Source: a virus
Length of the DNA stretch: 23,034 bases
IMG/VR virus record: IMGVR_UViG_3300025889_001000
Coordinates: 1 to 23,034 of that record
Strand: one strand, 5' to 3'
The notes under the pieces were generated by a model. That model made no database searches and was not told the DNA's origin. It saw only the letters and a list, made by a program, of their open reading frames with translations. Below, one piece after another: positions 5,669-20,003 of the stretch. Both the position numbers and the translations under genes were made by a program. Position 1 is the stretch's first letter. Every line of letters starts with the position of its first letter.

Positions 5669-8572
5669 TTATTTATTTATACTTTTTGAATATTTGGAAA
5701 CATCTGCCGATAATTGTGGAGTTAAATCTTCAGTATCTTGAGTATTATCTTCCAAATCTTCTGGAGCTGGTTGTTGCATTAATTGCTCTGAATTTTGTTG
5801 ATTTTGTGGTGTATAATCATCGTTTTCTATTTCTTTTTTCATTTGCTCAATTTCTTCTTCAGAAAATCTTAATACATTTCTATCAATCCAAGATTTGGAA
5901 TAAAATGTTCCTATATATGGTTCCATAAGAGTTAATAGATTAACTCTTTCTCTCATTAAATCGGCATCGCGCATTTCAGTGAAATTATTATCTTTCACAT
6001 AGTCATAATATACATCATCCTTAAATGTTTCCCATTCTTCTCTAGTACAAATACCTTTTAATGCTAATTGTATACTAAGAGCATTATCGAATAATTGGGA
6101 AAATTTATTTCGTAATCTGTCAATAAATTTTGAGAATTTAACTTCATCTCTTGTTACTTCGGACGTTCTTCCTAGACCTATTAGTCCACCTTGTTGTGGA
6201 TCCAATCGTGAAATTGGTACTTTTAGTGCCTGTAATAATTTTTGTCGAAAGAATACCACATCTTCAATTTGCGATAAATTTTGTCCAGATGGTAGAGTAG
6301 TTATTTCAGTGCCTTTCGAATTCATTACAAAAATGCCAGAACTTAATGCGAAATTATGATAATCATGATACTCGTGGTGTTCATCAATAGTTAAAGTTCC
6401 AACATCCAATCTATCATCTCTTCTAACTATTTTTACAACTTTATGATTATTGATTTTACTTTTTTCAAGTCGTTTTTGCACAATATATTTTGAGTCGACA
6501 TTTCTAACAATAAATTCGGAGATACTATTGTAACCATTTCTATGAAGATATTTGCATAATATTTTTATAGAAAGTCTTGGATATATCTCTTTAATATAAT
6601 TCAGTAAATGTTTATTGGAAACTCTAGGATTTTTTTCAACACATGAAACAATAATATCTTTTATAGTTGATAGTGAAACATTCTCTGTATTTTTCAGATG
6701 AATATTTATATTATGTTTGCCATGTTTTGAATATTTTTCTCCCCATTCATCTTTTGATAAATTTTTTCTATCATTTTCGCATATTTCTTTTCTACGATTA
6801 GCCCCTTTTTGTGACATTTCAAGAGTTAATCCTGGACTCCATTTTTTTAAATATTCATCTTTTGATAATATTTCTCTATCTCGTTGTCTATTTTGTTTTA
6901 TTATTTCCCGACCTTTTTTGAATCCATTTATTATTTTTTCATTTGTTTTATTGTTTTCTGATATTTCTTTTCGTCGATTTTGTCCTTCAGGAGTTTGAAA
7001 AAAATTCTTTCCAGACTTAGATAAATTTTCACAATGTTTATTGTAATCGCCATATTTCCAAGTTAATTGTGCATTTTTTCTATGGTATCTAATATGCTCA
7101 AATTTATCCATAATCAATAAATTTTCTGGATTATTATTGAATCTATTGAAATCTACATGATGTATTACTTCTGTTTTTTCTTGTATTCTGTCAAAATATC
7201 TTGATATCATTCTATGTGAATGTTCCCAAGTATTATCATCATTATGTTGAATTTGTTGATAGTCTTTTTTACTTATTGCTTTAAATTTAGTATTGAATGG
7301 CATTAATGACGATCCTGCTATCAGGTGCTGTGCTTCTATTTTTTCACCATTTCGCAAAATAAATTTATGATCAGGTGTTGCGATTATTGTTTCACCATTG
7401 TCTAAATGCACTTCAAGAATCTCCGCATTTTTTCGAGTGACTCCAGCCCACGAAATCTTACCCGGAACAATATGTCCATTCGGATCGACAGAATATACCC
7501 AATTTTGCTTGCCTAAATTATGTTCAATTATTAGATCATGTAATTCAACATCTCTACCATCCAATAATTTTATTTTCGTATCTAATGAAAAACAGCCTTC
7601 TCTTCTGGGCAAGAAAAAATCTTCCAGCATTGATAAATGTTTTCTCTGATCGACTAATTCGCCGGATTGTTGGTTATATACCATTTTATTACGATATTTA
7701 ACCATAATATCTTGCATATATTGTTCAGCTTTACCTTTAGGTAAATTTCCAACATCAATGTAAAATATTCTGCGTTCACTAGCTCGACTTATCCTATAAA
7801 TGACTACAGCATCTTCAATCATTCGTAGTTGATTCAGTGGTTTTATAGCACTATGTAAATATGATATGACAAAAGTATTTTTGGCATCCATCAAACCAGA
7901 ATTAATATTCAATATCGAATCCGGTGCAATCTTAACTCCAGTATTTACATTAGAAGTATATGTTTGAGTAGTTGTGCCGCGATCATTGTATACATAATAT
8001 TCTGCCGTGGATGCGATTACTACTGCACCAGTTTTTGGATCTTTTTCTTGTTTAATCTCACGAACTTTTCTAATTTTTCTAGGATCAATATATCGTAATT
8101 CTACTATTCCATTTTTAGGATTTTTTTCATCTACTATGATATGAAAAAATAGTCGACCATCAATATACCAACGTCTAAAAAGATCATCTGAAATATTAGA
8201 AAAATTCAACATTTTTTGAATATTGTCGAATTCTTCTATTATTTTTTTCTTAATCGTCTCTGAAAGCTTCAGATTGTCTAATTTAATGTGTATTATTTTA
8301 CCGGTATCATCATGTGATATTGCCTCATTAACAATCTCATCAACAGCCATATCCAACTCTGGATGATTGGCCATTTCACGATATCTTGTAATTAATTCTA
8401 ATTCATTTCTGACAGAACCTTCAAGATCAACATATGTTCCAAAATGACTAGATGATGTGATATTAACTGCACCATCATCTATAGCTTCAGTTGGTAAAGT
8501 AAATGCCGGTTGAGTAGGAGGTTGATTTTGCACAACCTCCTTTTTCCCTAATGTGAATCCAAACAGTTTCAA
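5669..8572 (-). CDS. 20: Portal protein, T4 gp20 family, interrupted by an intein
   Basis: The dodecameric portal is the unique head vertex through which DNA enters and the tail attaches. The 967-residue precursor is residues 1-326 plus 752-967 of portal (542 residues joined; T4: 524) with a 425-residue intein between. Portal signatures are RRWYIDGRLFFHIIVD (133-148), ELRYIDPRKIRKVR (158-171), FYIDVGNLPKGKAEQYM (270-286), LEDFFLPRREG before the intein, and SKGTEITTLPSGQNL then GGLIGLGRTSE after it. The interruption falls inside the highly conserved RREGxxGTEI box, so splicing is needed for a working portal. Translation most likely starts at TTG (8570-8572): an in-frame stop lies 3 codons upstream, AGGA is 9 bases before, and no ATG occurs until residue 68. 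Its tail holds the late promoter for the core genes. Confidence 0.97.
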   Translation of the reverse strand: MKLFGFTLGKKEVVQNQPPTQPAFTLPTEAIDDGAVNITSSSHFGTYVDLEGSVRNELELITRYREMANHPELDMAVDEIVNEAISHDDTGKIIHIKLDNLKLSETIKKKIIEEFDNIQKMLNFSNISDDLFRRWYIDGRLFFHIIVDEKNPKNGIVELRYIDPRKIRKVREIKQEKDPKTGAVVIASTAEYYVYNDRGTTTQTYTSNVNTGVKIAPDSILNINSGLMDAKNTFVISYLHSAIKPLNQLRMIEDAVVIYRISRASERRIFYIDVGNLPKGKAEQYMQDIMVKYRNKMVYNQQSGELVDQRKHLSMLEDFFLPRREGCFSLDTKIKLLDGRDVELHDLIIEHNLGKQNWVYSVDPNGHIVPGKISWAGVTRKNAEILEVHLDNGETIIATPDHKFILRNGEKIEAQHLIAGSSLMPFNTKFKAISKKDYQQIQHNDDNTWEHSHRMISRYFDRIQEKTEVIHHVDFNRFNNNPENLLIMDKFEHIRYHRKNAQLTWKYGDYNKHCENLSKSGKNFFQTPEGQNRRKEISENNKTNEKIINGFKKGREIIKQNRQRDREILSKDEYLKKWSPGLTLEMSQKGANRRKEICENDRKNLSKDEWGEKYSKHGKHNINIHLKNTENVSLSTIKDIIVSCVEKNPRVSNKHLLNYIKEIYPRLSIKILCKYLHRNGYNSISEFIVRNVDSKYIVQKRLEKSKINNHKVVKIVRRDDRLDVGTLTIDEHHEYHDYHNFALSSGIFVMNSKGTEITTLPSGQNLSQIEDVVFFRQKLLQALKVPISRLDPQQGGLIGLGRTSEVTRDEVKFSKFIDRLRNKFSQLFDNALSIQLALKGICTREEWETFKDDVYYDYVKDNNFTEMRDADLMRERVNLLTLMEPYIGTFYSKSWIDRNVLRFSEEEIEQMKKEIENDDYTPQNQQNSEQLMQQPAPEDLEDNTQDTEDLTPQLSADVSKYSKSINK
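5674..5681 (-). promoter_or_regulatory. T4-type late promoter box before the prohead core genes
   Basis: Minus-strand TATAAATA lying within the last codons of the portal gene, 22 bases before the ATG at 5651 and followed by a GGAG ribosome site. It would drive the 342-, 193-, 155-, 55- and 121-residue genes and gp21. Confidence 0.7.
6320..7594 (-). mobile_element. Intein with HNH homing endonuclease inside the portal gene
   Basis: Runs from Cys327 to Asn751 of the precursor. Block A is CFSLDTKIKLLDG, block B is ATPDHKF (398-404), and the C-terminal block is HNFALSSGIFVMN followed by Ser752 as the +1 nucleophile. Inserted between them is an HNH nuclease domain around residues 469-500 (IHHVDFNRFNNNPENLL, then HIRYH; DNA 7073-7171). 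Two repeats containing NRRKEIxEN (533-540 and 592-600) follow, of the kind used for DNA contact. A probable helix-turn-helix region lies at about 634-690. It should splice itself out and copy itself into intein-free portal alleles. The residue before the terminal Asn is Met instead of the usual His, which may slow Asn cyclisation. Confidence 0.93.
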
Positions 8573-11128: not shown

Positions 11129-12313
11129 TTATTTGTATATGTTTGAATTAAAAACACCATAATCAAACCATACATCTTTTGTATCATGATAGATTCCAGA
11201 ATCTATTCCATCGTCTCGTAGTATAGGCAAAAAATCATCTTCAATTTTCTGGATTCGTTCTTGATATAATGCTTGACGCAAATTCATATCAGTAACTTCT
11301 TTAAAAAACATGGAAGTTGTTAACCAACCAAATAATACTAACGTCATTACTAAATCATCATTATATCCTTCATCTGCTGCATATGAATCTTTTACTTGTA
11401 TGAAGGTTGATAATTCTGATATAATATCTGCATCGGGAATTAGCAGTTTTTTCTCTTCTATAAGCGCCTTAAAATTTGAACAACCGATACGTTTCACTTT
11501 TTTATCCGTGGAAACACCTAACGCGGTTGATGCACCAGCAAAACCATTCGATATTCTCTGCTGCGTATTATCTTTAGTGACAAATAAAATATTTTCATAT
11601 TCATAATCAGAATATAGAATATGTGCAACTTGATCTGAGAAATTAATTTCTAGTAGCACAAATGCATTGTTATATTGTCTAGCAACTTTATATATTATTG
11701 ATGGATATAATAACGGTGATATAGTATTATCTCGATATTTTGCAACAATTCGATAAGGCATTTGAGTAATATCAATTACTGTAAACGCGGAATAATCTCC
11801 ACCAACACCCTTAGATGTATCTGCAACTAGAATATATCCATGTTCATATTCCAATACTTTGTGATCCGAATCTAATGTTCTATGAATAGGATATTCATAG
11901 ATATCTAATCCCGAATCTGATAATAATGGAGTCGAATATGATAATTGACCTATTGTTTCTGCATTAATTAATGTGTATGAAGAACCATTAAATAGGCAAT
12001 TATGAGAAATTATATTTTTTGATAGATATTTACTGCCATTTGCAACATTTATTGGATCATATACATTTTGAATTTTATCCAATTTAACTGATACAACTAT
12101 TTCATTTCCTAATTTAGATTTAACTTTTAATGATTTGGCTGTAATTTCAATATTATCGTGAATAAATCTATGATCTGGCGTGCATATTACTTCTTTCCCA
12201 GATTGAAATTTAATTTTTAGTGTTTGTTTTTTTGATTTTCTTATGCCATCGAAATTTTGCCAATCAGTTGGCGTTAGAATTTCATAATTTGAGTTGAATG
12301 CTATTTCTGACAT
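11129..12313 (-). CDS. 17: Large terminase gp17, C-terminal nuclease part, with C half of split intein
   Basis: A 394-residue product. Residues 1-105 are the C part of a split intein and 106-394 are the second half of the packaging terminase. The extein begins at Cys106 (CLFNGSS) and has the RNase H-like nuclease residues of gp17: Asp165 in VADTSKGVGGDYSAF, Glu222 in LLEINFSD, and Asp319/Asp320 in EGYNDDLVMTLVLFGW. It lacks any ATPase motor, which is encoded separately at 13072-13968. Trans-splicing would give a 553-residue gp17 (T4: 610) cutting and packaging genomic DNA. The ATG (12311-12313) overlaps the end of the endonuclease gene by 13 bases, which suggests coupled translation. The ribosome site is weak. 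Confidence 0.94.
   Translation of the reverse strand: MSEIAFNSNYEILTPTDWQNFDGIRKSKKQTLKIKFQSGKEVICTPDHRFIHDNIEITAKSLKVKSKLGNEIVVSVKLDKIQNVYDPINVANGSKYLSKNIISHNCLFNGSSYTLINAETIGQLSYSTPLLSDSGLDIYEYPIHRTLDSDHKVLEYEHGYILVADTSKGVGGDYSAFTVIDITQMPYRIVAKYRDNTISPLLYPSIIYKVARQYNNAFVLLEINFSDQVAHILYSDYEYENILFVTKDNTQQRISNGFAGASTALGVSTDKKVKRIGCSNFKALIEEKKLLIPDADIISELSTFIQVKDSYAADEGYNDDLVMTLVLFGWLTTSMFFKEVTDMNLRQALYQERIQKIEDDFLPILRDDGIDSGIYHDTKDVWFDYGVFNSNIYK
11999..12313 (-). mobile_element. C part of the split terminase intein
   Basis: Residues Met1-Asn105 of the downstream terminase gene. Block B is CTPDHRF with Thr45 and His48; the C-terminal blocks are VYDPINV (84-90), YLSKN and IISHN, followed by Cys106 as +1 nucleophile. 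Length and motifs (NFDGI, YDPINV, SHN-C) resemble my recollection of the AceL-TerL intein from an Ace Lake metagenome, also in a phage terminase, with about 25 + 104 residues. Splicing has not been shown for this copy; all key residues are present. Confidence 0.92.
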
Positions 12314-13008
12314 AACAATCTTTTCGCAGTTGTATCTTTTGTGATTATTATATATAATCCATTTGCAGTTAAATTAAATTGATTACAAAATGTTTTCGCA
12401 AATGCTCTATCATAAGTTAAAATGTGCCCATTTCGTAATATCTGCCCATACTGTAATATTGGCATTGAATTATATAATCTAAGAATTTCGTTATATAATT
12501 TCTTTTTTTCTTCTATTTGTTTTTTTGATAATGGAAGTTTATTTTTTCTAAGTTCAGACATTTTCTTTTTATGTGATGGTTTTGAAAATGCCCTTAGTGA
12601 CGAAATTCTACTATTCTCTATTTGTTCTGGAGTTTTTTTCCAACGTTTACCATAAACTGGATTATTTTCTCTCTTTGCCGACATTCCGAACCAGCCAAAA
12701 TCTTTCGCAATGCTCATATTCATATACATTTCGGATTTGACAACATTTAATTTTTGCTGTAGTATTCTTTCTCGATACATTGCTTTTTTTCTTGAATAAT
12801 ATTTACTAATTATTATTGTTTTAAATAAATGTGGATTTTCAGTCAATTCTTTTTGAAAAATTAACTTATATTTTTTAGATTTAACTGAACCATGATAATG
12901 TTTATTTAACACAGTATCGATTAATGTTGATCCAATATAAAACATTGGTAATTTATTTCCTGTGTATACTGTTAAATACACACAATACTTTGGTGCATAA
13001 ATAGGCAT
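12301..13008 (-). CDS. GIY-YIG-type homing endonuclease in the break of the terminase gene
   Basis: A 235-residue product. N-terminal residues 8-100 fit the GIY-YIG nuclease fold: VYL (10-12) in the place of GIY, FYIGST (23-28) for YIG, HYHGSVKSKKYK, and a candidate catalytic Glu80 in YRERILQQKLNVVKS, then NMS. After it comes a NUMOD3-like DNA-binding segment (ENNPVYGKRWKKTPEQIENS, 114-133) and a basic C-terminal region. It has its own AAGGAG 7 bases before the ATG. It lies exactly between the two halves of a split intein, so it probably drives spread of the intein by cutting intein-free terminase genes. It is AT- and Lys-richer than its neighbours. Family call is good; exact specificity cannot be read. 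Confidence 0.85.
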   Translation of the reverse strand: MPIYAPKYCVYLTVYTGNKLPMFYIGSTLIDTVLNKHYHGSVKSKKYKLIFQKELTENPHLFKTIIISKYYSRKKAMYRERILQQKLNVVKSEMYMNMSIAKDFGWFGMSAKRENNPVYGKRWKKTPEQIENSRISSLRAFSKPSHKKKMSELRKNKLPLSKKQIEEKKKLYNEILRLYNSMPILQYGQILRNGHILTYDRAFAKTFCNQFNLTANGLYIIITKDTTAKRLLCQK

Positions 13009-13071
13009 GCTGGATACTCCTTGTCAATTTATCGTATCTAGGGGCGACAGAAACTATGAATTTCGTGGTCG
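13009..13071 (-). other. Leader of the endonuclease gene with a possible hairpin
   Basis: A 63-base gap between the N-terminal terminase gene and the endonuclease gene. On the minus strand CGAC-CAC-GAAA can pair with TTTC-T-GTCG across a 7-base loop (stem interrupted by an internal loop), 5' of the AAGGAG site. It may control endonuclease expression; this is only a possibility. No promoter of the late type lies inside; a one-mismatch box (CATAAATA) is at 13077-13084. Confidence 0.3.
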
Positions 13072-13968
13072 TCAATTATTTATGCTTAGTAGATCATGTA
13101 GTTTTTCTAATGTGATAATTTCTATTTTATTTGTATTTTTATTTCTAATAGTTACTGTTTCATTTCCACCTAGACATTCTACCTCCTGTGCAAATCCAAC
13201 ATCGCCTAATGTTTTTCGTTGTTCCTCTGCCCATTTTTTATTTTTTCCAGGAACTTCCGAATAGTGAATTTCATATGTTATGAATCCGTTCCTACCTTCT
13301 TTGGCATCGTTCCATAATTTCCAAAAATGATTATATCCTCTAGGTGTAGATGATATTAAAATTTTCGTTGTTGTACCAGAAGAAACTACCGGAAATACTG
13401 AAGTTAAAAACGCATCTGCGATATTATTTGGTATAATTGCGGCTTCATCTATATATAAAATCGAAATTGTTTTTCCTCGAATTCCCGATGATGTCGTTGC
13501 TGCTGTTATCACCTTGGAACCATTCTCTAACTCAATACTACCTTTATTCCAAGTTTTTACGCCTTGCTGCAACCATAACGGAAGATTCTCATACATTATC
13601 TGATAGCGAGATAATGTTTCCATAGCAGCATCTTCTTTATTGGCCAGAACCGCAACTGTTTTATTATCACTAAACAGTGTATGCCATAAAAAATATGCTG
13701 CCGCCGTTGTTGTTTTTGATGTTTGGCGAGGAAATTTTACTATTATCTTTCTATTATTGTGAAGAATATCCAGATAAGTTTTCTGAAATTTCCATAATTT
13801 GAAGGGCTGTAAACCGGAATCAACTGTTACAATATAGCAATAATTATCGATAAAATATTTATAATCTTCGGAGCATTTTTTAATCTCTAAAATTTGTTCC
13901 TCAGTATAATCAATTGCTACTCCAATACGTTTTAGATTAGGATTTCCAAAATAATTTTCGGATGCCAT
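13072..13968 (-). CDS. 17: Large terminase gp17, N-terminal ATPase part, with N part of split intein
   Basis: A 298-residue product. Residues 1-264 are the ATPase motor of the phage DNA-packaging terminase. They carry an adenine-binding region around FKLWKFQK (56-63), a Walker A variant RQTSKTTT (81-88), Walker B ISILYIDEAA (168-177) with Asp174/Glu175, and the coupling motif ISSTPRG (205-211). Residues 265-298 are the N part of an intein starting at Cys265 right after FAQEVE, where intact T4-like terminases continue with a conserved Cys-x-F-x-G-S. The nuclease half is encoded at 11129-12313. So this polypeptide alone is a truncated terminase that needs trans-splicing or non-covalent pairing. 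ATG 13966-13968 is one base after the Dps stop. Confidence 0.95.
   Translation of the reverse strand: MASENYFGNPNLKRIGVAIDYTEEQILEIKKCSEDYKYFIDNYCYIVTVDSGLQPFKLWKFQKTYLDILHNNRKIIVKFPRQTSKTTTAAAYFLWHTLFSDNKTVAVLANKEDAAMETLSRYQIMYENLPLWLQQGVKTWNKGSIELENGSKVITAATTSSGIRGKTISILYIDEAAIIPNNIADAFLTSVFPVVSSGTTTKILISSTPRGYNHFWKLWNDAKEGRNGFITYEIHYSEVPGKNKKWAEEQRKTLGDVGFAQEVECLGGNETVTIRNKNTNKIEIITLEKLHDLLSINN
13075..13176 (-). mobile_element. N part of the split terminase intein
   Basis: Thirty-four residues, Cys265-Asn298 of the upstream terminase gene. CLGGNETVTI is a good block A, followed by NTNKIEIITLEKLHDLL and an immediate stop. The split between blocks A and B gives an unusually short N fragment. 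Together with the 105-residue C part it makes a 139-residue mini-intein without a nuclease domain. Confidence 0.9.
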
Positions 13969-13969
13969 C

Positions 13970-14416
13970 TTATGTTAAAATGCTACGCAACATCCATTCA
14001 TGTTTTTTATGAGCATCAATTCTACCCGCGATATAATCTGCCAATCCTTGAAGTTTTAATTCAGTTGCCAATTCAAATGTAATATTCAAAGTATTCAATA
14101 TGGTCTTATTATCAGCGAATAGTCGTTGAACCATTTCTGGAATTGCTGGAATACTCAATTCACATTTAATTTCAGTTAATTCAAGAAATCTAGTCATAGA
14201 TCCAGGTGCAAAGGTATCCAATGTTCTAAGATGTTCTGCGATATCATCTATTGAACCATTCAGTTCAGTATAGAAATTACCGAAAAAATCGTGATACATT
14301 GGAAAATTTGGACCAGTACAATTCCAGTGATAATTTAATGACTTAACATATAACGCAAATGTATCAGCTAATACTTTCTTCATTAATTCTTGAATAGTTT
14401 TTGTGTCTTCCATCAT
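13970..14416 (-). CDS. dps: Dps-family ferritin-like protein
   Basis: Predicted 148-residue four-helix protein of the Dps family, which assembles into 12-mers that oxidise and store iron using H2O2 and may bind DNA. Ferroxidase-site residues occur with exact family spacing: His30 (SLNYHWN), His42 (MYHDFF), Asp57 and Glu61 (DDIAEHLRTL). The APGSM motif (70-74) also fits. It is full length. Two Met codons start the frame (MMED); the first overlaps the TGA of gp16 (14413-14415), and GGAAAG lies upstream. It sits between the small and large terminase genes, absent from that spot in T4. A role in protecting phage DNA from iron-driven oxidation during late infection, or inclusion in virions, is inference. 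A cellular origin is likely. Confidence 0.93.
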   Translation of the reverse strand: MMEDTKTIQELMKKVLADTFALYVKSLNYHWNCTGPNFPMYHDFFGNFYTELNGSIDDIAEHLRTLDTFAPGSMTRFLELTEIKCELSIPAIPEMVQRLFADNKTILNTLNITFELATELKLQGLADYIAGRIDAHKKHEWMLRSILT

Positions 14417-17618: not shown

Positions 17619-20003
17619 TTATCCTGTAATTGTCCATTGTTTTAGTAAAGCTGGCGCTGTTATTAATTCTCTAAAAGTATATGTTGATGTATTGGATATT
17701 GGCATAACTCTCGATAATGTGATGCTAGTATTTGTGACAACTGAGTCCACAACCGCTTTATATCTTGCTTGTCCCGATCCATCTGTAGTTAACGTAACAG
17801 CACTACCACCAACTGTTTCTGATACTTGAAAATCATTTGCATTAGCATTTATAACATAGTATGTTTTCCATGTAGTTAATCCAGTAGTTGATACTATTGA
17901 ATTAAATGATATGATATCATTATTTTGTAGACTATGTGCAGTAGCTCCAACTAAATCACCGGCATCAGTAAAAGTGACTGCTAGATTGGCTGTTATTGGT
18001 GAACCACCACCAGTAACTTGCATACCTGTTAAAACACCCACGGTATCTGAAGTTGTGATTAGATTCGAACCAGCCGTAGATGTGCAAGTTTTTATAACAG
18101 AATTACCTACTCCATGATTTGTTGATATTGTAAGAGTTGCTCCAGCCACGGTATTTGCAGTTGCGAGATTATTAAAGAATGATTCAAGTTCGGTTCGACC
18201 CAAACTAAGTGATGCAACCGATAGTGTAGTCGCAACATTTGACAATAATATCTTTTGCACTGACGCACATGAAGTAAACGTTCCCGTAAATCCTGCCGTA
18301 GTTATTATAGATTTACAATTCATTGCGGGAATTGTTTTAATATTTCTACAAGCCGAAAACATGGATCCCATAGTGGTTACTTTATCAGTATTAAACGCTG
18401 GAATAGATTCTAATGCTGAACAACTACTGAACGTAGATGAAAAAGAAGATACATTGGCAGTATTAAGCGCGGGAATAGAAGTTAATGCTGAACAACTTGC
18501 AAATATAGATGCAAAAGAAGTTACATTGGCAGTATTAAATAAAGGTACTGATAGCAATGCTGAACAACCACTGAACATAGATGCCGCCGTCGTCAATTTG
18601 ACAGTATTAAATAAAGGCACTGTTTTCAATGATGAACAATTTGTAAACATTGAACCCATAGAAGTTACATTGGCAGTATTAAATAAAGGTACTGATAGCA
18701 ATGATGAACAACCACTGAACATAGATGCCATAGAATCCACATTGACAGTATTAAATAAAGGTACTGATTTCAGTACAACACAATTTGTAAACATTGAATT
18801 CATAGCAGTCACAGCAGCAGTATTAAATAAAGGTACTGATTCCAATGCTGAACAACCACTGAACATAGTACCCATATCAGTGACTTTTGTAGTATTAAAT
18901 AATGGCACTGTTACCAAACTATCACAACCATTAAACATTAAAGACATATCAGTGACTTTTGTAGTATTAAATAAAGGCACTGTTTTCAATGCTCTACAAT
19001 TGGAAAACATTGATGTCATATCTAAAACATTTGCGGTATTGAATAATGGCACTGTTTTCAATGAGTAGCAACCACTGAACATTTGTGACATATCAGTAAC
19101 AGTTGTTGTATTAAATAATGGAAAAGATTGTAGGCGAGTACACCCCGTAAACATGGCATTGGTTGAAGTAACGGTTCCAGTTGATACGAAATATACATCT
19201 TGCAACGCTGCTAAATATTGGCACTTGGAGGCAAATGTTGTTAATGCACTACTAATGACTCTAACTCTTTCTAAACTATTAAAATATACTGTTGGAGATG
19301 CTGATCCTATAGTTAATGTTGTCATTAACGGTGCGGATATTAATAGATCAAGAAATCCAGTAGAATATGCTGGTAAGTTTGTTTTGCTATGTTTTACATT
19401 AAAATTAACAGATGTTAGATTCGCGCCAGCTTGTGGTGTAATTGTAATTAATGCTTGTTTATAATTTAATAATGTCGCTGATCCATCCGTAGTTAGCGTA
19501 ACTGCACTACCACCAACTGTTTCTGATACTTGAAAATCATTTGCATTAGCATTTATAACATAATATGTTTTCCATGTAGTTAATCCAGTTGTACTAACTA
19601 TATTATAAAAATTTACTTCCATTCCATTGGAATACCCATGATTTGTTCTTGATATCAAATCACCAGCATCCGTTAATGTTACTGGAGCATTTGTGTTATC
19701 CAAAGCGGTGTCAATATAAGAGTATTCATGATATGCAACTGTGGCAGCATTAACATTTTCACTGGTACCATCACCCCAATTTACATTATAATTACCGGAT
19801 ATTATACCCAATGCAACAAAATTGGAATTAGCATCAAATACTTGATGTACTGCTACAATTTTCTCTTCGGTGTTTGCGACTGCGGGTAGACTAATCCAAG
19901 AAGGATTTCTAGTCCAGTATGAAATAATGTCACTATATTCATTATAGGAATGATTCTTATCGTAATTATCAACATTAGATTGTTGAACTGATTTAATACT
20001 CAT
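17619..20003 (-). CDS. Large phage surface/fibre protein with BspA-type leucine-rich repeats
   Basis: A 794-residue product. The N-terminal part contains VNWGDGTSENV (74-84), as often found before BspA-type repeats. Residues about 283-583 are 13 repeats of the DUF285/BspA LRR type, consensus TxMxxMFxGCxxLxxVPLFN. The first twelve Cys positions are 24 residues apart (FTGC at 285 to FSAC at 549), the thirteenth 27 apart. BspA-type repeats are known from surface proteins that bind host molecules. A 70-residue module (TDAGDL..GLTTWKTYYVINANANDFQVSE..) occurs twice, at 108-178 and 677-745. There is no signal peptide, fitting a virion protein rather than a secreted one. Its place among fibre genes before gp13 suggests a receptor-binding or tail/neck-attached adhesin; this is inference. 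Confidence 0.88.
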   Translation of the reverse strand: MSIKSVQQSNVDNYDKNHSYNEYSDIISYWTRNPSWISLPAVANTEEKIVAVHQVFDANSNFVALGIISGNYNVNWGDGTSENVNAATVAYHEYSYIDTALDNTNAPVTLTDAGDLISRTNHGYSNGMEVNFYNIVSTTGLTTWKTYYVINANANDFQVSETVGGSAVTLTTDGSATLLNYKQALITITPQAGANLTSVNFNVKHSKTNLPAYSTGFLDLLISAPLMTTLTIGSASPTVYFNSLERVRVISSALTTFASKCQYLAALQDVYFVSTGTVTSTNAMFTGCTRLQSFPLFNTTTVTDMSQMFSGCYSLKTVPLFNTANVLDMTSMFSNCRALKTVPLFNTTKVTDMSLMFNGCDSLVTVPLFNTTKVTDMGTMFSGCSALESVPLFNTAAVTAMNSMFTNCVVLKSVPLFNTVNVDSMASMFSGCSSLLSVPLFNTANVTSMGSMFTNCSSLKTVPLFNTVKLTTAASMFSGCSALLSVPLFNTANVTSFASIFASCSALTSIPALNTANVSSFSSTFSSCSALESIPAFNTDKVTTMGSMFSACRNIKTIPAMNCKSIITTAGFTGTFTSCASVQKILLSNVATTLSVASLSLGRTELESFFNNLATANTVAGATLTISTNHGVGNSVIKTCTSTAGSNLITTSDTVGVLTGMQVTGGGSPITANLAVTFTDAGDLVGATAHSLQNNDIISFNSIVSTTGLTTWKTYYVINANANDFQVSETVGGSAVTLTTDGSGQARYKAVVDSVVTNTSITLSRVMPISNTSTYTFRELITAPALLKQWTITG
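17776..17885 (-). repeat. Dispersed direct repeat, copy A (beta module core)
   Basis: About 110 bases nearly identical to 19480-19589 in the same gene and orientation, about 1.7 kb away. It encodes the segment TTWKTYYVINANANDFQVSE and the following VGGSAVTLTTDGS. Confidence 0.85.
18255..19157 (-). repeat. Tandem 72-bp repeats encoding BspA-type LRR units
   Basis: DNA of the 13 repeat units. Most are diverged, but 18517-18585 and 18661-18729 differ at one base over 69 bases and lie exactly 144 bases (two units) apart. This points to recent duplication of a two-unit block. Confidence 0.85.
19480..19589 (-). repeat. Dispersed direct repeat, copy B (beta module core)
   Basis: Partner of 17776-17885. 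Recombination between the two would delete the LRR array in frame or nearly so. Confidence 0.85.

Follow-up and report, generated by a model that had tools for sequence, protein, structure and literature searches.

In the viral DNA analysed here, a stretch of 23,034 nucleotides (IMG/VR record IMGVR_UViG_3300025889_001000, positions 1 to 23,034; hereafter the window), a single host protein, the large terminase subunit TerL, is encoded by two separate open reading frames (ORFs) on the minus strand, and a third gene stands between them. A first-pass annotation, made from the sequence alone, had described the locus as a fractured terminase gene in which split-intein halves surround a free-standing GIY-YIG-type endonuclease; this observation is confirmed, and independent contigs show the same layout. 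The locus contains the following features:

13072-13968, minus strand: ORF for the N-terminal part of TerL (TerL-N) plus the N-terminal intein half (IntN) (ORF, translation)
13177..13968, minus strand: TerL N-extein, the gp17 ATPase part, 264 amino acids (aa) (ORF, Terminase_6N E=1.4e-20, boundary)
13075..13176, minus strand: IntN, 34 aa, Cys1 (CLGGNETVTIRNKNTNKIEIITLEKLHDLLSINN) (translation; alignable with the IntN of loci L092, L095, L006 and others)
13077..13084, minus strand: CATAAATA, a 7/8 match to the T4 late promoter consensus and a weak candidate for the endonuclease promoter
12301..13008, minus strand: free-standing homing-endonuclease-like gene, 235 aa (ORF, PHROG, alignment, predicted structure)
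12745..12990, minus strand: GIY-YIG catalytic domain, divergent, residues 7-88 (Pfam 0.037; fold match to the I-TevI domain 1ln0)
12310..12525, minus strand: C-terminal helical tail, residues ~162-233 (alignment, tail hidden Markov model (HMM), AlphaFold2 model)
11129-12313, minus strand: ORF for the C-terminal intein half (IntC) plus the C-terminal part of TerL (TerL-C) (ORF, translation)
11999..12313, minus strand: IntC, 105 aa, ending ISHN (CatC (PDB 6dsl) E=1.5e-8; Intein_splicing 9.5e-05; alignment)
11129..11998, minus strand: TerL C-extein, the gp17 nuclease part, 289 aa and stop, first residue Cys+1 (Terminase_6C 4.2e-12)

The translated TerL-N ORF ends QEVE|CLGGNETVTIRNKNTNKIEIITLEKLHDLLSINN*, that is, the ATPase gene runs into an intein half followed by a stop, and the third ORF opens with IntC, whose ISHN is followed by CLFNGSS and the terminase nuclease domain, as had been proposed for both genes. 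Joined, the exteins give a predicted spliced product of 553 residues, the length anticipated earlier, corresponding to a T4-gp17-type large terminase, and close intein-less homologues align with TerL-C from residue 106. The two halves are complementary, since the splice-junction residues are all present (Cys1, CTPDH in block B, SHN and Cys+1). Searched against the PDB, IntC matches CatC (6dsl, chain B) best, over 97 of its 105 residues, and the Intein_splicing match lies under the Pfam cut-off. The endonuclease gene is located between the intein halves as described, although the break falls at the atypical N-terminal S1 position instead of the canonical point of endonuclease insertion. The 34/105 aa division, with its short IntN, is the atypical geometry of TerL inteins, unlike that of canonical split inteins, and the sequence places the intein among the atypical TerL split inteins (AceL-TerL, GOS-TerL and the engineered Cat).

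The assignment of the middle ORF to the GIY-YIG-type nucleases, for which the Pfam match is weak, is made firmer by PHROG, alignment and structure. PHROG endonuclease families match it down to 2.8e-29, and its phage relatives are annotated as GIY-YIG or HNH; in an alignment of 26 sequences the GIY-YIG tyrosines are invariant, and the window has Tyr, Gly, Glu and Asn at the diagnostic positions. The AlphaFold2 model of the 235-aa protein (mean predicted local distance difference test score 84, predicted template modelling score 0.49) has the I-TevI catalytic domain 1ln0 as its best PDB match (Foldseek probability 0.99, E 0.017) and shows a disordered linker at residues 104-123 and a confident helical tail at ~162-233, for which Foldseek gave no confident PDB match; a sequence search of the endonuclease against the PDB gave no match either. 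A NUMOD3-like tail had been suggested, which holds for the linker; a distinct C-terminal helical domain follows it. The HNH label carried by one PHROG family is contradicted by the alignment. For a Vsr/PD-(D/E)XK-like nuclease, Vsr being the other candidate named for comparison in the first-pass annotation, there was no match in Pfam or PHROG, the predicted fold being GIY-YIG. The catalytic domain of the window is nearest to those of tail-less free-standing endonucleases at other loci (L097, L098, L100). Relatives of the window endonuclease were also observed beside ribonucleotide reductase genes in the Rhizobium phages IG49 and LG08 (L191, L192). A search for an RNA hairpin hiding the start of the endonuclease gene gave a fold no better than shuffles (z -0.96).

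The encoded proteins are identical (100%) in three other IMG/VR contigs, and the same three genes occur in two further lineages (L092 and L095, each with its copies), whose endonucleases are 65% and 55% identical to that of the window; the search of metagenomes for this layout that had been recommended also recovered it in ~30 further lineages. Pairwise ratios of nonsynonymous to synonymous substitution rates (dN/dS) of the endonuclease against the two orthologues are 0.18-0.26, rough values in that synonymous sites are near saturation. The relatives of TerL-C are mostly intein-less (empty alleles), and alignments with these alleles in related phages run through the site without a break. Altogether, this evidence makes it very probable that the locus is a mobile cassette, in which an atypically split class-1 intein resides in a T4-type TerL and a homing endonuclease is lodged in the break. 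The two intein halves, once translated, would assemble and generate the 553-aa terminase by trans-splicing, while the endonuclease would cleave intein-less terL close to the point of insertion and the whole cassette would be copied during repair. Mobilisation of the whole cassette by the endonuclease, as already proposed in the first-pass annotation, fits the purifying selection, the presence or absence between near-identical phages and the many empty alleles.

A scan of IMG/VR with IntC gave 432 relatives, of which the best 80 were parsed together with isolates; the spacers between IntN and the endonuclease amount to ~78 distinct ones in IMG/VR. A free-standing ORF lies between the intein halves in most of the distinct lineages parsed, and by Pfam the middle regions are GIY-YIG in 22/35, HNH_3 in 3/35 and T5orf172 in 3/35. 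Other arrangements exist at the same site: in the Vibrio phages K469, VP-1 and 1.244 the GIY-YIG part is fused in frame behind IntN, split forms occur without an endonuclease (e.g., L038 and EniLVp02), and further relatives carry continuous mini-inteins. L129 and L132 form a natural deletion pair, with ~1 kb of compared flanks identical and only the HNH gene differing. Since the continuous intein of L136 retains out-of-frame bases from the 3' end of the endonuclease, and L174 retains spacer bases, re-fused mini-inteins arise from fractured ones by deletion, in L136 at least and probably also in L174. On the IntC tree the continuous forms require at least 4 changes and the HNH forms 3 (starred branches), gains and losses being inseparable. 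The endonuclease stop and the IntC start overlap within 20 nt in 28/34 loci (by 13 nt in the window), and this near-constant overlap suggests that translation of the essential TerL-C may be coupled to the endonuclease frame, which would penalise loss of that frame.

Inteins were also observed at other places of terL. In L006 (2126-3712) a second, continuous intein lies at the Walker B site of the same gene and embeds a GIY-YIG-like domain at the same N-terminal (S1) position. In terL of the Campylobacter phages IBB_35 and CP21 (L084, L088) inteins have inserted several times, and at another site T5orf172-like endonuclease genes separate the halves.

In many relatives GAnTGTGAnTTnnTnGGA and then TATAAATA stand in the spacer that separates IntN from the endonuclease, the former matching the uninterrupted terL site (E-C-E-F-L-G codons) and the latter the T4 late promoter. 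This promoter lies just after IntN in most classic GIY-YIG and HNH members, where the target copy (hereafter the mimic) abuts TATAAATA at a fixed 18-20 bp; over all distinct spacers, TATAAATA is found in 52/78, against 3.7% expected. A mimic matrix was built from 37 natural empty sites and replaced an underpowered test with each phage's own target. Compared with dinucleotide shuffles, 18/31 distinct spacers scored at p<=0.05 and 13/31 at p<=0.01, p-values that are not independent because the loci are related; complementary and reversed spacers scored much lower. Among spacers found by the tail alone, 38/40 reached p<=0.05, and TATAAATA lay 19 bp from the mimic start in 33. Based on the mimic at the late promoter and the precedent of the I-TevI operator, an I-TevI-like autorepression via the mimic is likely in the relatives that carry it, and with their own late promoter and adjoining target copy most classic GIY-YIG and HNH relatives would probably repress themselves late in infection. 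A literature search, with subscription papers mostly outside its scope, found no report of autorepression of intein-associated endonucleases.

Alternatively, the mimic next to the late promoter of the relatives could be a passive relic of endonuclease insertion and not an operator. It indeed agrees with the coding target in the first two positions of codons, the pattern expected of copied coding sequence, and it is blind to the phage's own synonymous variants (13.1 vs 12.9 of 18 matches, p=0.28). However, when the spacers were anchored on TATAAATA, with no selection for the mimic, the same site at the fixed distance appeared in most of 25 non-redundant spacers while the flanks were unconserved (one further conservation profile was score-selected and hence overstates conservation), and the mimic accompanies both GIY-YIG and HNH members that bear the tail and is absent from members without it, except for one weak case (L175). 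A passive relic is thus regarded as rather unlikely.

The tail itself is a common element of these enzymes, the last 60-70 residues being alike across endonucleases with differing catalytic domains (several GIY-YIG types and HNH). An HMM of the tail built from GIY-YIG members only, window included, detects HNH members (L144, 8.9e-19), KYFGKT-type GIY-YIG members (L121, 8.9e-15) and the fused Vibrio proteins (VP-1, 1.5e-13), and gave no match among related free-standing endonucleases at other loci. The simplest reading of these sequences is an exchange of domains on a conserved tail, which may be the target-reading part that binds the DNA of the terL site and would leave the catalytic domain exchangeable. 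The tail may also be a generic phage helix-turn-helix module, uninformative on target choice: it resembles the helix-turn-helix tails common on phage HNH endonucleases, and its fold is without a confident PDB match. This is quite unlikely, as in the data searched the tail is located only at the TerL site. In a tblastn search against 50,697 phage records, meaningful coverage was obtained only for the terL of VP-1, and in a tail-only scan of IMG/VR, for which closer sequences were used, the broad tail alignment being short of conserved stretches, 77/77 new loci adjoined a TerL intein half and 72/77 both halves.

A broader view of the family is thereby outlined, towards which we lean with some reserve. 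The terL site would host modular cassettes in which a conserved target-reading tail is combined with swapped catalytic domains (classic GIY-YIG, SegE-like GIY-YIG as in the window, and HNH), the tail would also bind a mimic operator abutting the late promoter and so mediate autorepression, and repeated loss of the endonuclease would leave endonuclease-free split inteins or re-fused mini-inteins.

Several observations on the window copy weigh against an active, mobile cassette of this kind. The GIY-YIG match in Pfam (E=0.037) reaches 14.8 bits against a cut-off of 22.6, and a clear equivalent of Arg27 of I-TevI is not evident in the alignment of 26, where the GIY-YIG subfamily of the window has a GSxK-type motif in its place; with a score below the cut-off and no obvious catalytic arginine, endonuclease activity of the window copy is not assured. 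Its spacer is without a target mimic (matrix p=0.40; no significant local match) and without an exact TATAAATA. No mimic turned up on either strand of the spacer or within 90 bp on either side of the junction; a single weak match, at p=0.02 in one of several tests, falls within the endonuclease gene. In the sister loci L092 and L095 an exact TATAAATA precedes the endonucleases by 15-24 nt and the mimics are at most degenerate. As far as is visible, the autorepression part is therefore not applicable to the window copy, in which the operator may have been lost or never present. These features, together with the existence of split forms devoid of endonuclease, would also be expected of a degenerate remnant, with a dead endonuclease and a split terminase kept only because its halves still splice. 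Such a remnant is decidedly improbable for a frame that is open, evolves at the low dN/dS given above, and conserves the tail as well as Tyr, Gly, Glu and Asn at the catalytic positions.

Lastly, two unrelated terminase fragments, or the assembly or sequencing error in a continuous intein that the first-pass annotation had named as its possible refutation, could be imagined for a metagenomic contig with continuous mini-inteins at the TerL site of its relatives, but this is extremely improbable in view of the three other contigs with identical encoded proteins, the layout common to two lineages with diverged endonucleases and the isolate phages split at the same site, and assembly error is ruled out by these independent contigs and lineages.

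With regard to the rest of the window, genes for tail sheath, tail tube, portal and a putative small terminase neighbour the locus and fit a T4-like myovirus. Directly upstream of the terminase gene (13970-14416, minus strand) a Ferritin-like/Dps-like protein is encoded (PF00210, 9.4e-23). The gene at 17619-20003 (minus strand) encodes 794 aa, in which DUF285 matches in five stretches (E=6.8e-61) and PHROG gives tail-fibre-like hits; a surface or fibre protein with repeats is the probable product. The portal (gp20) gene (5669-8572, minus strand) carries a continuous intein with an HNH endonuclease (CFSLDTKIKLLDG ... FVMN|S), as the portal match comes in two stretches with HNH families in between, and TATAAATA occurs 36 bp ahead of the annotated portal start.

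Fractured genes, in which the halves flank an endonuclease gene, were described in phage-like metagenomic DNA, according to the accounts given in later papers (Dassa et al., 2009, via PMC11766414 and PMC10448857). The window has the same order of gene half, intein half, endonuclease, intein half and gene half, and differs in its break at the S1 position. The endonuclease of those genes is reportedly Vsr-like, whereas that of the window is GIY-YIG. A GIY-YIG endonuclease is found in the fractured gene AceL NrdHF, which differs in its host gene (nrdHF), class 3 intein, 98/48-aa split and canonical position (PMC7891396). Hence, of the earlier suggestion that the window may hold a different combination, it stands that the enzyme is not Vsr-like, but a GIY-YIG case was already published and this type is the commonest at the TerL site. 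The window locus alone is thus a further example of a known arrangement, and the family shows features for which the literature search found no description.

CatC is a consensus of the AceL-TerL and GOS-TerL inteins (PDB 6dsl), which are split at 25/104 and 37/115 aa (PMC11766414). These inteins have in common with that of the window the TerL host, a short IntN (25-37 aa), an IntC of 104-115 aa and homologous IntC sequences; the IntC of the window has diverged, and PMC11766414 gives no endonuclease context for their loci. Natural IntC genes up to 89% identical to CatC stand in loci that hold a tail-bearing endonuclease, which indicates that the engineered Cat intein comes from the TerL cassette family. 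The widely used atypical TerL split inteins are in this way tied to a natural genetic context, the endonuclease gene sitting at the break provides a possible reason for their near-N-terminal split, and alleles that are split, fused, endonuclease-free or re-fused become available as a natural series. In the isolated T4-like Yersinia phage TG1 (L196, 2513-5362) terL is likewise broken, here at the Walker B site, by a split intein that comes with an endonuclease gene; the nuclease is Vsr/EDxHD-like in appearance, and this phage is a tractable system.

I-TevI has a late-promoter operator with 15/20 nt identity to its homing site, through which it is autorepressed (PMC2988022). Among the systems compared here the likeness is confined to the relatives, in which the endonuclease gene is preceded by a late promoter with a target-like operator next to it. 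I-TevI is a group I intron endonuclease in td, whereas the relatives are free-standing endonucleases inside a split-intein terL, and, unlike I-TevI, their HNH and GIY-YIG members have one mimic in common. The shared tail and the decoy site yield a prediction of the DNA-reading part of the enzyme and open domain swapping and autorepression of homing endonucleases to direct tests.
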